A DNA stretch of 64,000 bases from Asanoa ferruginea (lineage in GTDB: Bacteria; Actinomycetota; Actinomycetes; Mycobacteriales; Micromonosporaceae). The stretch lies in assembly GCF_003387075.1 (NCBI RefSeq), contig NZ_QUMQ01000001.1, forward strand, positions 4,402,001-4,466,000. The letters run 5' to 3'. Below the pieces are notes generated by a model that saw nothing but the letters and a program-made list of their open reading frames with translations, ran no database searches and was not told the DNA's origin. The translations under genes were made by a program, and so were the position numbers. This document shows positions 2,577 through 32,412 of the stretch, in pieces (the stretch's first letter is position 1; every line of letters starts with the position of its first letter).

Positions 2577-2771
2577 CTAGAAGTTGAACATCGGTTCCCC
2601 GACGGTGGTTGGCTGCCAGTACGCGATCCCGGATCTCTCGGCGGGGCCGAGGGCGTCAAGGTTTGCGCTTGATAGCGGCGTGCTGAGTTGCCCGACGGTC
2701 AGGATTTCCAGCTCTGAGACTCGGCTGATGGCGGCTGCGAGGCGGGGATGATCGACAAAGGTCACCCGCAT
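2577..2771 (-). CDS. Short conserved-type protein ending in VGEPMFNF
   Basis: The likely ATG at 2771 gives 64 residues, MRVTFVDHPRLAAAISRV to the end YWQPTTVGEPMFNF. Upstream in-frame sequence runs into the tRNA genes, so the longer frame is not credible. From memory, many short actinobacterial proteins close with a similar Y-W-x-P-x-x-V-G-x-x-x-F-N-x-W-D tail; here the tail stops before the usual W-D. The function is unknown. Confidence 0.45.
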   Translation of the reverse strand: MRVTFVDHPRLAAAISRVSELEILTVGQLSTPLSSANLDALGPAERSGIAYWQPTTVGEPMFNF

Positions 2772-2859
2772 GTCGGACGGTTCGCGGGGCCCGGCGAACG
2801 CGTCGCTCCGGCTGGCACCTTCATGGCCGAATTCTCCGCGGTGGGCCCTGAGACGCAGA

Positions 2860-2893
2860 AGAGCCGGTCCCTCGCTCCGAGGAAACCGGCTCT
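2860..2893 (-). terminator. Stem-loop terminator of the tRNA operon
   Basis: AGAGCCGGT (2860-2868) pairs perfectly with ACCGGCTCT (2885-2893). The hairpin lies 16 bp beyond the 3' end of tRNA-Val, in the direction of tRNA transcription. Only a weak T run follows, as is usual in high-GC actinobacteria. Confidence 0.6.
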
Positions 2894-2909
2894 GACCTCC
2901 TGGTCTATC

Positions 2910-2984
2910 TGGTGGGCGATACTGGGTTTGAACCAGTGACCTCTTCCGTGTCAAGGAAGCGCGCTCCCACTGCGCCAATCGCCC
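2910..2984 (-). tRNA. tRNA-Val (anticodon GAC)
   Basis: The acceptor stem GGGCGAT pairs with ATCGCCC, followed by A and an encoded CCA. The anticodon loop TTGACAC sits on a CTTCC/GGAAG stem, and the T-arm carries GGTTCAAACCC. Third gene of a minus-strand cluster after tRNA-Gly and tRNA-Cys. Confidence 0.95.
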
Positions 2985-2997
2985 TCGCTTTAGTGCG

Positions 2998-3068
2998 AGG
3001 TGGAGACGGGATTTGAACCCGTGTAGACGGCTTTGCAGGCCGTTGCCTCGCCTCTCGGCCACTCCACC
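2998..3068 (-). tRNA. tRNA-Cys (anticodon GCA)
   Basis: The acceptor stem is GGTGGAG/CTCCACC with discriminator T. The anticodon loop CTGCAAA sits between GGC and GCC, and the T-arm has GGGTTCAAATCCC. CCA is not encoded. A small CCTCGC/GCGAGG hairpin (2983-3000) lies between it and tRNA-Val and may help processing. Confidence 0.95.
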
Positions 3069-3090
3069 GAGGTTTTCCCTCGACGTGCCG

Positions 3091-4426: not shown

Positions 4427-5785
4427 ATGTCAAGAGGCTCGCGACACGGAAGGTCGGGCGCGGTTGCTCGACCCACGGCCAAGGCACGCCGGATCGCGAC
4501 CGAGAGCGTGCGGATCACCGGTGACCTGCTGGCCCCCGCCGACCCCGCCGACATCGCACCCACCGCCTCCCGCACCCGCCGCTTCTGGGCCCGCGTACGC
4601 GGCCAGGAGCCCATTCCCGGCCTACGGACGATCAAGGTGGCGCTCGCCACGGTCCTGGCGTTCCTGCTGGCCGAGCCCTTGGCGTCGACCGACCCACCGA
4701 TCGTCGCCGCGCTGACCGCCCTGCTCGTCGTCCAGGTCAGCCCGATCAAGAGCATCCGCTCGGGTTGGGAACGGATCGGCAGCGTGCTCGCTGGCGTACT
4801 CGTCGCCGTCGTGCTATCCAGCGTCTTCGGTCTGCACTGGTGGAGCCTTGGCGTGACAGTCGTGGCATCCATGACAATTGCCTACGCGCTCCGGCTCGGT
4901 GACCACGCGCTCGAAGTGCCGATCTCAGCGATGCTCGTGCTCGCCGTCGCCGGCAACACCGACGTCGGCATGGAAAGGATCTACGAAACCTTCATCGGCG
5001 CCGGCGTAGCGGTCGTGGTGAGCGTGGCGCTGCCGAGGGTCTACGTCCAACCCGCCGGCGACGCGATCGGCAAACTCGCCGCGGAGATCGGTAAACAGTT
5101 GCGCGACATGGCGGGCTGGCTGCAAACGGACTGGACCGCCGACCGCGCCAACGACAGCCTGCGCCGCGCCCGCAACATCGAGCAACTGATCAACACCGCC
5201 CGCAAGGCCCTCACGCAAGCGGAAGACAGCGTGCGCCTCAACCCGCGCGCCATGCGTACCGCGCACATCCCGGTCACCATGCGCCCCGGCCTCACCGCGC
5301 TGGAGTTCTGCACGATCTCGCTGCGCGGCGTATCCCGCGCCCTCCTCGACCGCCGCTCCGGCGACTGCGCGCCACACCCGCCCGGCCAGTGGGTCACGCT
5401 GAGCCTGTCCCGCCTGCTCGACGCGATCGCCGACGCGGTCCTGGCGTTCGGCGTGGTGATCGCCTCCGACGTGAACGCGCCCCCGCCAAGCCCCGAACCG
5501 CTCCGCCACGCACTACGCCGCGCCCGCTTCCTCCGCGACGAGGCCACCTTCCAACTCCAGGAAGACGCCAAAACGGAGCCCGCAATCTGGCGCGTCAACG
5601 GCGCGCTGGTCGGCCACCTGGACCGCTTGATCAACGACCTCGATCCAGACACGGAGTCGGTCTCGCCGGCGATCACCCGCCCGCGCCCCGAGCCGGTCAA
5701 GCCGTTGCGCCGCTTCACGCCGGCGGTCATCCGGCAGCAGCTCGACGACGGCGCGCGGTCTATCCGCCGGCGCATCCGGCGATAA
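4427..5785 (+). CDS. FUSC family / aromatic acid exporter-like membrane protein
   Basis: A 452-residue integral membrane protein. After about 55 polar residues come hydrophobic segments in a block around residues 65-210, with [41 protein letters not shown] and [12 protein letters not shown]-type spacing (here [20 protein letters not shown]). This is the pattern of the FUSC/ArAE domain, whose members include efflux of aromatic acids. The C-terminal half is soluble and helical. Strong Shine-Dalgarno GGGAGGGG precedes ATG 4427. The substrate is unknown. No partner gene is nearby; the gene is followed by the non-coding repeat tract. Confidence 0.75.
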
Positions 5786-5944
5786 CCCCGATCGATCAGA
5801 TTTGCGCGCGTCCGTCGGGGGCGCGACCGCTTGCTCCCGCGCGCAACGGGCCGGTCCCTGGCGGGCCCGGCCCTGCCCGGTCCGCGGTCGCAAGACCGGT
5901 CGCGGGTCGGCGTCGGCCAGGAGTCGCGGTGGCCCAGGGCCGGG

Positions 5945-6650
5945 CTGGTTTGCCGCGGCCAGTCGGTCGGGTGAGTGCTGTTGGCGGTGGCCCGGGGCGG
6001 GGCAGTTTGCCGCGGCCCGGTCGGTCGGGTGAGTGCGGTGGCGGTTGGTCCGGGGCGGGGCCGGTGTGCCGCGGCTTGGTCGGTCCGCTGAGTGCTGGTG
6101 GCGGTTGGCCCGGGGTGAGGCCGGCGTGCCGCGCGGCGGTCGGTCGGGTGAGTGCTGGTGGGGCGGCCTGGGGCGGGGGCCGGTGGGCGCGCCGCGGTCG
6201 GTCAGGCGAGTGCTGGTGAGGTGGCCTGAGGCGGAGCCGGGGTGTCGCGGCCCGGTCGGTCGGGTTAGTGCTTGTGGCGGTTGGTCCGGTGCGGGGCCGG
6301 TGTGCCGCGGCTGGTCGGTCCGCTGAGTGCTGGTGGCGGTTGGCCCGGGGTGAGGCCCGCGTGCCGCGCGGCGGTCGGTTAGGCGATTCCTGGTCGTGGT
6401 GGCCCGGTGCGGGGCCGGTGTGCCGCGCGGCGGTCGGTCGGGTGAGTGTTTGTGGGGTGGCCTGGGGCGGGGCCGGCGTGCCGCGCGGTGGTCTGTCAGC
6501 GATTCCTGGTGGCGGTGGCCCGGGGCGAGGTCGGCGTGCCGCTGCGGCCGTCCGGCGACTGCTGGTCGTGGTGGCCAGGGACGAGGCTGGCTTGCCGCGC
6601 CTGGCCCCAGTCGAGCGACCGCTGGTCGCGGTCGAGGTGCGCGACCACGC
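5945..6650. repeat. Tandem array of about 12 degenerate 59-bp repeats
   Basis: Repeat units start near 5951, 6008, 6067, 6127, 6190, 6243, 6303, 6362, 6421, 6479, 6537 and 6593, that is every 53-63 bp and mostly 57-60. Each begins with TGCCGCG(C)GG, then GTCGGTCGGGTGAGTGCT, then GGTGGCGGTTGGCCC and a G-rich GGGGCGGGGCCGG. The period is not a multiple of three and changes frame, so the long open frames on either strand are not credible proteins. There are no unique spacers, so it is not CRISPR. One strand is strongly G-rich. The array degrades toward its right end. Confidence 0.85.
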
Positions 6651-6678
6651 CGCCCGGCTGCTTCGGGCCACCGGCCGG

Positions 6679-6824
6679 TGATCGTGTGCAGCTGGTCGAC
6701 ACGGGCAGGCCCCGTCTGCTTGATCGTGTGCAGCTCATCTGCAAGCAGCGCGGCGTGTCGTGCAGCCCTGGCACACATGATCTTGGGAAGGGGTCGGGAT
6801 CTTGCAGATCTCGTGCACCTGATC
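6679..6824. repeat. Direct and inverted GATC..GTGCA..ATCTGCAAG elements
   Basis: TGATCGTGTGCAGCT occurs at 6679-6693 and 6721-6735. The second copy continues to ATCTGCAAG (element 6722-6745). Its reverse complement, starting CTTGCAGATC and ending CCTGATC, lies at 6801-6824 with 18 of 24 bases matching. The set looks like a REP-like dispersed element in paired inverted orientation. The surrounding 5786-5944 and 6825-6939 hold nothing else I can name. Confidence 0.5.
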
Positions 6825-6939
6825 GAGAGCGTCCGGCGCTCACCCGATCGAGGCGATCCGGCGCTGGCCGGGGTTACGGCCGGCTGGCGACGGGCTTGGC
6901 GGAAGGCCTTCGCAGGTCGTGGCGGCCGTGCCTCGATCC

Positions 6940-6990
6940 GGGGCAGCACACGTGGGGAGTTGATCTTTCTTTTCCCACGTGTGCTGCCCC
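6940..6990. terminator. Perfect 17-bp stem-loop
   Basis: GGGGCAGCACACGTGGG (6940-6956) is perfectly complementary to CCCACGTGTGCTGCCCC (6974-6990), with a 17-nt loop that is T-rich on the plus strand. It could be a bidirectional terminator or a structured RNA element. Bases 6991-7250 downstream contain no gene; they are the leader of the secreted protein gene. Confidence 0.65.
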
Positions 6991-7250
6991 AGACCGGCCG
7001 CTTGCCCCCTCGCCTCGGCCCGCATCGCCCCGCTGGTCCGCACGGGGCGAAGACCGAGCGGCCAGCATTCGCGCGGCAGGCCTCGGGTTTCGCCCAAAAG
7101 CCGATCATCACGTGCCGGCTGGTCGACGTCGGCACCCGCCCCGTGCTTCCCGCGTACGTTGAACATCGTCTATCTTTATGTCGCCAGTTGGACGTTTGGG
7201 GCCAGCAGGATCCGACGTGTCCCTCCACTCCGGACGCGGGAGACGCAGAC

Positions 7251-8285
7251 ATGCGCGTAAGAAGTAGGTTCCTGGCCGTGGGCCTGGCCGTCACGCTGGC
7301 GGCGGCATCGCTGACAGTGGCCACGCCGGCCAGCGCTGCCGTCAGTCGGGCCGAGCTCGCCCTTCGTTGGGCGCCGATCCACTACCAGGATGTCGACGCC
7401 ACCGGGAGTCACGCGCTCGGTGGCAAGGCCGACCACATCACTGCGGTTGACTTCGATGGCAACCTCAACGGGCGCGACAACTGGGATCATGCCGGTGCGT
7501 CGGTCGCCGCGCACGCCTACTACTCCGTTGTCGAGACCAGCACTCACTGGTATCTGACCTACCTCTTCTTCCACCCGCGGGACTGGGTCGACCACCCGTT
7601 CTTCGAGACCGAGCACGAGAACGACGCCGAGGGTGTGTTGCTTGCCGTCGAGCGCGACGGGTCCACCTACGGCGCGCTGCGCGGGGCGGTGACGGTCGCG
7701 CACAGTGACTTCTTTTCCTACGCGCCGGCCGGTAGCACCTGGACCAGTGGCCGCGAAAGCATCGACGGGACCTTGCGGCTGGCCACGTCGCCGCATGACG
7801 GGTTCAGTCACCCGGTGACCGCCCAGGAAGCCAAAGGGCACGGGCTGAAAGCCCATCCACAGTACGACATCAACGGTGACGGCCTCGTCTACTATCCGTC
7901 CACAGTGGCCGAGTCGCCGAGCAACGGTGACGACCGCGACGTGCAATACAAGCTGGTCGACATCTTCGCCGCCGGTGGCCTGTGGGCGCAGCGGGCCAAC
8001 GCCAGTCTCTTCGCCAGCCTGGGTACGTTCGCCGGCGACACCACCGGTGGGTGCGGCTCCGGGACGTTCGGCTGCTCGGCCAACTCGGCCAATGCGCCGT
8101 GGGGCTGGGACGACGGCAACGACCTGCCCGGCCGCGGCGAGATTGCCAGCGACCCGGCCAAGCTGTCGGCCGAATACTTCACGATCCCCGGTGGCGTGTC
8201 GCGCGCCTACACCTACAACCCCTACAGCGGTGCGGCCGCGGCGCTGAAGGAAGCCGCCCGCACGGCACCGCCCACGGTCGACTGA
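7251..8285 (+). CDS. Secreted protein of unknown function
   Basis: A 344-residue protein with a clear Sec signal peptide (hydrophobic residues 8-28, cleavage after TPASA). The mature part begins LRWAPIHYQDVDA and contains a hydrated, His/Asp/Trp-rich core: HAYYSVVETSTHWYLTYLFF, HPRDW, and TEHENDAEGVLLAVERDG, followed by a C-terminal half rich in G, N and D. The EHENDAEGV stretch recalls the acidic His-Asp metal-binding loops of NPP1- and Vps62-like secreted proteins, but I cannot assign it to a family. The start is ATG 7251 after GGGAGACG. Cysteines in TGGCGSGTFGCSA may form a disulphide. Confidence 0.75.
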   Translation: MRVRSRFLAVGLAVTLAAASLTVATPASAAVSRAELALRWAPIHYQDVDATGSHALGGKADHITAVDFDGNLNGRDNWDHAGASVAAHAYYSVVETSTHWYLTYLFFHPRDWVDHPFFETEHENDAEGVLLAVERDGSTYGALRGAVTVAHSDFFSYAPAGSTWTSGRESIDGTLRLATSPHDGFSHPVTAQEAKGHGLKAHPQYDINGDGLVYYPSTVAESPSNGDDRDVQYKLVDIFAAGGLWAQRANASLFASLGTFAGDTTGGCGSGTFGCSANSANAPWGWDDGNDLPGRGEIASDPAKLSAEYFTIPGGVSRAYTYNPYSGAAAALKEAARTAPPTVD

Positions 8286-20866: not shown

Positions 20867-21515
20867 CTTCGATCGTGATACCCAGCGCCGCCGCGAAGGT
20901 GTGTGACAGGGCCGCCAGGTCGGGCGCCGAGATGGTCGAGCCGGCCAGGCTGGTGACGCCGCCGAGGCCGGCCAGGTCGCACGCGGCGAAGCGGGTGCCG
21001 GCGCAGTTGGCGTTGGAGAGTTGGGCGCCGGTCAGGTCGCACCCGACGAACTCGGCGCGGCGCAGGTCGGCGTTGGTGAAGTCGGCGCCGGACAGGTTGC
21101 AGTCGACGAACCGCACGTGCGCGAACGAGGTGAAGCGGAACGCCACCAGGTTGGCGCGGCAGTCGGCGAACGTCACCTCGCGCAGCGTGCCGGCGGCCCA
21201 CTGGGCGCCGGTCAGTCGCACGTCCGCGAGGCGTACCCGAAGCATGGTTGGCTTGTTGAACCGGCTGTTGGCCCAGTCACCCTGGTCGGCGACGCAATCG
21301 GTGAAGCGCGGCTGGTCGAGCACCGTGGCCGCCAGGCTGGTGCGCTCGAAGCGGCACTGGTCGAACTCGACCACGTCGGCTTCCTGACCGGAGAGGTCGC
21401 GGCCGGCGAAGCGGAGCCGGCGGAAGAGCGCCTCGTGTTCGAGGTCGTCGTCGGTGTCGGCGAGGGTCGGCAGTTGCGGCTCGCGGAGAGCGGGACGACC
21501 GGGCACGCCGACCAC
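20853..21515 (-). CDS. Pentapeptide-repeat protein
   Basis: A 220-residue soluble protein. From about residue 48 to 180 it contains A-D/N-L-x-x repeats such as FDQCRFERTSLAATVL, VRLADVRLTGAQW, VRFVDCNLSGADFTNADLRRAEFVGCDLTGAQLSNANC, forming a right-handed quadrilateral beta-helix. Some members mimic DNA and protect gyrase from quinolones, but most have no known role and nothing here points to a specific one. The start is GTG 21515. It is followed after seven bases by the HelD gene's far end on the same strand. Confidence 0.88.
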   Translation of the reverse strand: MVGVPGRPALREPQLPTLADTDDDLEHEALFRRLRFAGRDLSGQEADVVEFDQCRFERTSLAATVLDQPRFTDCVADQGDWANSRFNKPTMLRVRLADVRLTGAQWAAGTLREVTFADCRANLVAFRFTSFAHVRFVDCNLSGADFTNADLRRAEFVGCDLTGAQLSNANCAGTRFAACDLAGLGGVTSLAGSTISAPDLAALSHTFAAALGITIEASSH

Positions 21516-31839: not shown

Positions 31840-32412
31840 GTGATTCTCGACGCGCTGATCCGGCCGCTCCGCCGGATCGTGCGCCGATCTGCCCGGGTTC
31901 TAACTGGTTTGGCCGCTTTGGCGCTAGCCGTAGGGATCGGCGTGTCGACGCCCGCCGCGCCGGCCGCCGCAGCGCCGCCGGCAGCCGCTGCCGCGCCGGC
32001 CGCCGCCGTGCCGCCGGCACCCGTTGCCGCGCCGGCCGCCCGGGCGCTGCCGGCACCCGTGCCCGCCTCCGCCCGCGGCGGCGTTGACCGCGTCAGCGCC
32101 GTGCCCGCCTCCGCCCGCGGCGGCGTTGACCGCGTCAGCGCCGTGCCCGCCTCCGCCCGCGGCGGCGTTGACCGCGTCAGCGCCGTGCCCGCCTCCGCCC
32201 GCGGCGGCGTTGACCGCGTCAGCGCCGTGCCCGCCTCCGTCCGCGCCGGCGTTGACCGCGTCACCGCCGGGCCGGCCGTCGTCCCGCCGGCCGGCGCCAC
32301 CTCCGACCCGCAGCCAGCGGCCGCGGGCGACGCGCGCCGACCGCACCCGGCCGCATTCCCGGAGAAACCCGCGCCCCGGGCCCCACCGGCGGGCGACGAC
32401 ACCACCCGCTGA
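31840..32412 (+). CDS. Ala/Pro-rich secreted protein with perfect 14-residue repeats
   Basis: A 190-residue frame from GTG 31840. A basic start (IRPLRRIVRRSARV) and hydrophobic LTGLAALALAVGIGV look like a signal peptide, followed by Ala-Pro-rich sequence and then five 14-residue repeats of P-A-S-A-R-G-G-V-D-R-V-S-A-V, the last one degenerate. The tail is Pro-rich and disordered. No family is known. It is divergent from the Ser/Thr kinase. Coding is supported by the signal-like start and frame-preserving 42-bp period, but antisense frames are also open, so confidence is moderate. Confidence 0.5.
   Translation: MILDALIRPLRRIVRRSARVLTGLAALALAVGIGVSTPAAPAAAAPPAAAAAPAAAVPPAPVAAPAARALPAPVPASARGGVDRVSAVPASARGGVDRVSAVPASARGGVDRVSAVPASARGGVDRVSAVPASVRAGVDRVTAGPAVVPPAGATSDPQPAAAGDARRPHPAAFPEKPAPRAPPAGDDTTR
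32059..32268 (+). repeat. 42-bp tandem minisatellite, five copies
   Basis: Four copies are identical base for base (32059-32226) and begin GTGCCCGCCTCCGCCCGCGG. A fifth at 32227-32268 differs at a few bases. The period is 42 bp (14 codons), inside the Ala/Pro-rich secreted protein gene. Identity at synonymous positions points to recent expansion. Confidence 0.9.

Follow-up and report, generated by a model that had tools for sequence, protein, structure and literature searches.

A non-coding minisatellite within a species-specific intergenic insertion of Asanoa ferruginea, and a dispersed palindromic element associated with tandem arrays in Asanoa

Bacterial tandem repeat loci of the minisatellite type include those of Mycobacterium tuberculosis, whose MIRU units recur at many loci. 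A survey of satellites (PMC6749651) puts their density in Streptomyces coelicolor, on the definition used there, at 4.20 per Mb; the long-repeat satellites of Clostridium difficile are, according to that survey, all unique and without relation to one another. The tandem repeats of Borgs are presented (PMC9879509) as fast-evolving, independently formed and located in intergenic regions too; they are enriched in A and encode perfect amino acid repeats when they fall within reading frames. Here we describe an array from the chromosome of A. ferruginea. The window analysed, 64,000 nucleotides in length, comprises positions 4,402,001–4,466,000 of the single 9.07-Mb contig; feature coordinates within it are compiled in Table 1.

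The original prediction of a tandem array of about 12 units at this locus was borne out. TRF identified a repeat with a period of 58 bp and 11.6 copies (77% matches, 5% indels, score 636), with higher-order periods of 235 and 294 bp; the array alone scored 785, whereas the highest score among 500 dinucleotide shuffles was 95 (period ≥20). After registration to the consensus, eleven of the units measure 55–60 bp, and the first one, which is degenerate, 63 bp. Units 3 and 7 share 95% and units 4 and 8 share 98% identity, and every other pair of units is at most 89% identical, indicating duplication of one four-unit block. Divergence is greatest in the edge units 1 and 12. Block duplication together with diverged edges is expected from slippage or unequal exchange. 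The locus thus combines head-to-tail units of tens of base pairs, repeated well above chance, with a non-coding character and with signs of growth by tandem duplication (the segmental duplication and the degenerate edges), as is typical of bacterial intergenic minisatellites.

Table 1. Features of the array and its surroundings (window coordinates).
Feature	Position	Strand	Basis
Upstream gene, aromatic-acid-exporter / FUSC-like membrane protein	4427..5785	+	PF06081 E 2.4e-17, PF13515 E 4.4e-9
Species-specific insertion of ~1,261 bp between two conserved genes	5895..7155		junctions vs A. ishikariensis
Minisatellite, 12 consensus-registered units	5898..6602	+	TRF 5926-6599 + unit registration
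Units 3-4, first copy of segmental duplication at 4-unit lag	6019..6137	+	pairwise unit identity
Units 7-8, second copy of segmental duplication	6254..6372	+	pairwise unit identity
Decayed coding-like fragment (PVERPLVAVEVRDHAARLL)	6594..6662	+	86% identity to own C1:7090540-7090608, E 6.7e-16
Palindromic element copy, inverted TGATCRTnTGCA-type sites	6672..6837	+	model 126.8 bits on +, 42.1 bits on -
Two-copy 25-bp direct repeat, overlaps end of palindromic element	6816..6865	+	repeat search
Inverted repeat, 23-bp arms, 17 nt between, 91% complementary	6934..6996		repeat search
Downstream conserved gene, signal-peptide-like start	7251..8285	+	next to upstream gene in L010, L011, L012, L013

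The array occupies the left part of the insertion and is followed by the coding-like fragment (69 bp), the copy of the palindromic element (166 bp) and a strong hairpin. The left junction of the insertion follows GGTCGCAAG and the right junction precedes ACGTTGAACATCG; the sequence of A. ishikariensis (L010) is nearly continuous across both, and no clear target duplication was found at the edges. The array is absent from the same gap in A. ishikariensis, A. hainanensis, A. iriomotensis and A. siamensis (L010–L013), the four named species covered by the gap comparison; in all four, the two flanking genes are adjacent, with a short gap between them. The upstream exporter gene is present in 5/5 other Asanoa genomes, the four named species included, at 84–87% identity. 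The downstream gene had no Pfam match at E 0.001. A search of phage and plasmid records for the whole insertion returned no match at E 1e-5. The inverted repeat near the right end is weakly repeated at two further places in the genome. The coding-like fragment, besides its match on the own chromosome, is 82% identical to a place in A. ishikariensis (G001). Its source protein had no Pfam match; since the source gene (C1:7.09 Mb) follows a sigma-factor-like ORF, it perhaps encodes an anti-sigma factor. An origin of the 58-bp unit from this adjacent fragment was considered and rejected: the array scores 47 against the source segment, a value reached by 877 of 2000 GC-matched genomic segments, and random segments did as well in 225/2000 cases for the last unit, 584/2000 for the consensus and 602/2000 for the fragment against the array. 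With a longer segment, a shuffle test gave 15/300.

Apart from one short match to the flanking fragment, the array locus is single in its own genome. Searches against 40 relatives retrieved short, weak matches only; 23 genomes reached E ≤0.001, with a best value of 1.5e-6 and a maximum length of about 140 bp. The 24-base core of the unit, allowing up to two mismatches, was found once, in one of 249 other genomes of the family; this near-absence from relatives favours the neutral minisatellite which the original prediction had named as the alternative to a functional array. The A. ferruginea chromosome contains further arrays. In 80 sampled 20-kb stretches, which cover 1.6 of the 9.07 Mb unevenly (nothing from 3.53–4.30 and 5.60–6.00 Mb, but densely at 4.47–4.61 Mb), 11 arrays with a period of at least 30 bp not divisible by 3, a length of at least 150 bp and at least 2.5 copies were detected, indicating that the window array is one of many in the genome. 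Samples of 0.4 Mb from G004, a fifth Asanoa relative, and from G008 contained one such array each. Within the window, a near-perfect 42-bp repeat is located at 32057–32277 (5.3 copies, 97% matches); its period is a multiple of 3, and it is perhaps coding. A degenerate 60/30-bp repeat at 20967–21112, also with a period that is a multiple of 3, resembles a coding stretch of the pentapeptide-repeat type.

The palindromic element downstream of the array belongs to a dispersed family of about 165 bp, of which 25 copies were located in the A. ferruginea genome. One of them (L192) is partial and was excluded from the model alignment; the other 24 were aligned. The invariant positions are located in the TGATCRTnTGCA-type sites, which occur in inverted order, and the ends of the consensus are likewise inverted (TGATCGTTTGCA...TGCAAACGATCA). 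None of the 25 copies overlaps a called gene. At E ≤0.01 the model matched 56 of 121 family genomes, many of them with a single weak match. Four of the five other Asanoa genomes contain 13–23 matches among those listed (at least 13 each), and the A. siamensis-like G005 none; outside the genus, at least 17, 11 and 18 matches were obtained in G057, G059 and G080, which represent two other genera, with the proviso that these per-genome figures may count both strands of one place and that the initial scoring covered no more than 22 candidates for each genome. Comparison of 14 element loci of four other Asanoa genomes with those of A. ferruginea showed that what they have in common are many-locus repeats of 76–176 bp; no common flanking genes were found within 1.5–1.8 kb, and the positions differ between species. 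The element is scarce at 4.41–8.17 Mb of the A. ferruginea chromosome (41% of its length), with 1/25 copies strictly inside (binomial 3e-5, for limits set post hoc). With a view to the origin and terminus, the long ORFs of the first 5 kb were inspected and the first 20 kb scanned for exact peptide motifs; neither revealed a dnaA gene.

As regards the nature of the element, double changes were observed in 3 of 29 predicted RNA pairs, and Rfam searches of five element-bearing loci yielded no match except a tRNA. A RAYT-driven REP system was dismissed, as no Y1_Tnp (RAYT-type) transposase was found in the own genome; one of the five other Asanoa genomes has one partial match containing a stop. 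A candidate for the terminal inverted repeat of a large composite element, a 38-bp motif, was likewise dropped because it looks like a terminator-type GGGGC...GCCCC hairpin. The element family, multi-copy in several Micromonosporaceae and with invariant inverted motifs, looks like an uncharacterised protein-binding or mobile element. No description of it was found among the open-access papers listed by searches on minisatellites in actinobacteria, on repeats of Micromonosporaceae or Asanoa, or on minisatellites and palindromes.

Three side observations concern its surroundings. At L106 16582–18020 (G000:C1:3076582-3078020), a species-specific insertion of about 1.44 kb contains the palindromic element and a 136-bp tandem array; the site is empty in G004 and G001, where the flanks are adjacent within 2 bp or overlap by 5, the possible 5-bp overlap at this C1:3.08 Mb site being that against G004. 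A second dispersed imperfect palindrome of about 145 bp (GATCTCCTCGTCGGGC...GCCCGACGAGGAGATC; e.g., L193 ~2750–3070), unrelated to the element, occurs at 16 or more genome places, 10 of them beside the element and 6 without it, and also in G004 (L251). A third repeated hairpin, AGATCTAGG...CCTAGAT (about 48 bp), lies 169–272 bp downstream of the element start in 12/25 copies.

Tandem arrays accompany the element far more often than expected. Counting arrays of at least 100 bp with a period of at least 20 bp, we found arrays 175–1500 bp downstream of 16/25 copies in A. ferruginea, as compared to 6.4% of random positions (binomial 9e-14), and 15 of these 16 arrays start 242–536 bp from the element start. 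Upstream, arrays near 3/25 copies did not exceed chance (binomial 0.21). Only 8 terminator-like hairpins were available as control positions (4 with a nearby array on one side, 1 with an array on the opposite side), too small a set, and length-matched gaps were used instead. Among intergenic gaps with a net length of at least 400 bp, arrays are present in 17/24 with the element (the window included) and in 18/229 without it (Fisher 8e-12). The excess is retained when gap orientation is matched, with 11/13 vs 9/61 for convergent gaps and 6/11 vs 9/169 for other gaps, the two control runs differing by one gap (229 vs 230). The 24 gaps exclude L195, an element gap with a net length below 400 bp and no array. 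Gaps were derived from a home-made codon-position heuristic for gene calling, which missed the downstream gene at the window, so that the length of the window gap is overstated.

The association extends to other Asanoa genomes. In G004, an array lies within 1.5 kb, to one side or the other, of 9 of 14 copies, as compared to 4.7% of random positions per side; the 14 places tested come from 22 reported matches, which include cases of a single place matched on both strands. Most of the G004 arrays lie upstream of the element, as in the window, albeit with a weakly defined strand because the element is palindromic. The single element loci of G001 and G003 both have an array (2/2), and the truncated G002 locus has none (0/1). 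In other genera, 4/25 element-model loci have an array; every one of these arrays has a period divisible by 3 and is thus possibly coding. Head-less gaps (those without the element) that contain the 145-bp palindrome have an array within 1.5 kb in 4/6 cases, and a perfect hairpin with a 12-bp stem occurs in 9/20 head-less gaps with an array vs 35/248. For ten of the 11 arrays in the 1.6-Mb sample, the 20-kb stretch concerned contains no confident element (a weak match, E 0.0076, is present in one of these cases), indicating that the element is not needed for arrays to occur. In BLAST comparisons (E 1e-6), the arrays at L192, L196, L206, L207, L209 and the window have no match to the arrays of other copies; those of L193, L106 and L197 are mutually related, and the L194 array matches three others, so that joint movement of array and element may have occurred in some cases. 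The window unit was compared with arrays beside the element in other Asanoa genomes, several of these arrays likewise having units of 57–63 bp, and no homology was found: one of 30 comparisons (15 arrays on both strands) gave p 0.02, which is the chance level.

Taken together, we consider it probable (about 0.8) that the array is a neutral or nearly neutral, non-coding minisatellite which grew by slippage or unequal exchange within a species-specific insertion, in an Asanoa "repeat island". A GT-rich stretch inside the insertion would have been duplicated in tandem; growth by replication slippage or unequal exchange would have included the duplication of a whole four-unit block, and the array would now be diverging, its edges foremost. 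The insertion would belong to a class of intergenic islands in Asanoa that gather palindromic elements and minisatellites, with units that are often unrelated, and palindrome-induced fork stalling or breakage is proposed as the cause of array formation there. It is this last step that separates the preferred reading from co-tolerance, in which palindromes and minisatellites merely share selection-free gaps without any causal link; we regard co-tolerance as a serious contender, though at somewhat below even odds. It would account for the avoidance of called genes by the element and for the shared occurrence in convergent gaps, which hold 13/25 element copies (11 by a stricter caller) and 19/35 of the array-holding control gaps; moreover, island and array are net gains at both alignable sites, the window and C1:3.08 Mb, the flanks of a third array locus (L134) not being alignable. 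The persistence of the link after matching for gap length and orientation, and the narrow spacing of the downstream arrays from the element start, argue against it. A stronger causal version, in which the TGATC/TGCA element is a hotspot that seeds minisatellites, a bound protein or a stalled fork repeatedly duplicating in tandem whatever lies within about 1 kb and the window array, like its often unrelated counterparts at other copies, being a by-product, appears unlikely to us. It speaks against a causal reading that the window array lies upstream of its element, the minority side in the own genome, and that the side varies between genomes.

Functional readings of the array itself fare considerably worse. 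The original prediction had suggested that the units, each keeping the core GTCGGTCGGGTGAGTGCT, might be bound by a DNA-organising protein. Twelve near-regular copies about 58 bp apart and a strong strand asymmetry would suit such a role; however, the claim about the core was too strong, with exact copies only at 5962 and 6139 (2/12 units) and copies with up to two mismatches in 8/12, and the core is hardly more conserved than the remainder of the unit (majority frequency in units 2–12 of 0.859 vs 0.827; another stretch of 18 columns reaches 0.879). As the array is, in addition, confined to a single locus and, within the genomes searched, to one species, we judge a binding-site array very improbable. 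The same holds for a source of repeated small RNA, or a G-quadruplex or R-loop element acting on the flanking genes. Both of these genes are on the + strand, so that read-through would yield RNA of the G-rich sequence, and the G4Hunter |score| exceeds 1.2 at 12.6% of array positions vs 1% of the window. The predicted G-richness of one strand stands as far as asymmetry is concerned (GC skew of 0.33 on the + strand, about the maximum among 674-bp pieces of the window; 26 A and 124 T), but not as an excess of G-runs: runs of at least three G number 25, whereas dinucleotide shuffles average 37, and there is one canonical G-quadruplex (loops ≤7) vs 1.6 expected. The predicted RNA folds of the two strands do not stand out from those of shuffled sequences (z of -1.0 and 0.6, with 20 shuffles per strand). 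A scan of 5700–7400 detected neither a sigma-70-like promoter nor a terminator-like site, and Rfam gave no match at the array, its only hits in the window being three tRNAs elsewhere. A G-quadruplex or structured-RNA device thus finds no support. The least plausible reading is a remnant of a repeat-bearing protein gene. Long open frames cross the array (603 aa on the - strand), and a coding-derived fragment abuts it; the period, however, is not a multiple of 3, so that the frame shifts from unit to unit, GC contents by codon position are flat (0.80/0.79/0.75, as compared to 0.70/0.53/0.88 in the upstream gene), and derivation of the unit from the fragment could not be demonstrated, as random segments score as high. 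The non-coding assignment of the original prediction is thereby supported, and its interpretation as a whole is partly supported.

The window array, then, is a genuine but ordinary private minisatellite, of use mainly as a possible strain-typing marker. More notable is a by-product of the analysis, namely the family of palindromic elements, which in Asanoa shows a strong statistical association with arrays. If dispersed palindromes favour the formation of new, mutually unrelated minisatellites, the genus would provide a natural, replicated system for studying what starts a minisatellite in a bacterial chromosome, a long-open question.

Among known systems, REP/REPIN sequences offer a parallel for the element: like these (PMC3116915), it is dispersed, extragenic and multi-copy and contains an inverted pair of short motifs. 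It differs from them in the lack of a cognate RAYT, as no Y1_Tnp was found in the own genome, in its length of about 165 bp with several sites, and in the adjoining tandem arrays of other sequence. CRISPR loci resemble the array in having regularly spaced repeats of similar period; in the array, however, the whole unit is repeated and spacers are absent, in agreement with the original prediction that it is not a CRISPR. In contrast to the Borg repeats, the window array is GT-rich, degenerate and chromosomal, and unlike the dispersed units of the MIRU type, its unit occurs at one locus only. The closest likeness is to bacterial minisatellite or VNTR loci such as the MIRU-VNTR loci of M. tuberculosis, with which the array shares a non-coding unit of tens of base pairs, head-to-tail arrangement, divergent copies and locus specificity.
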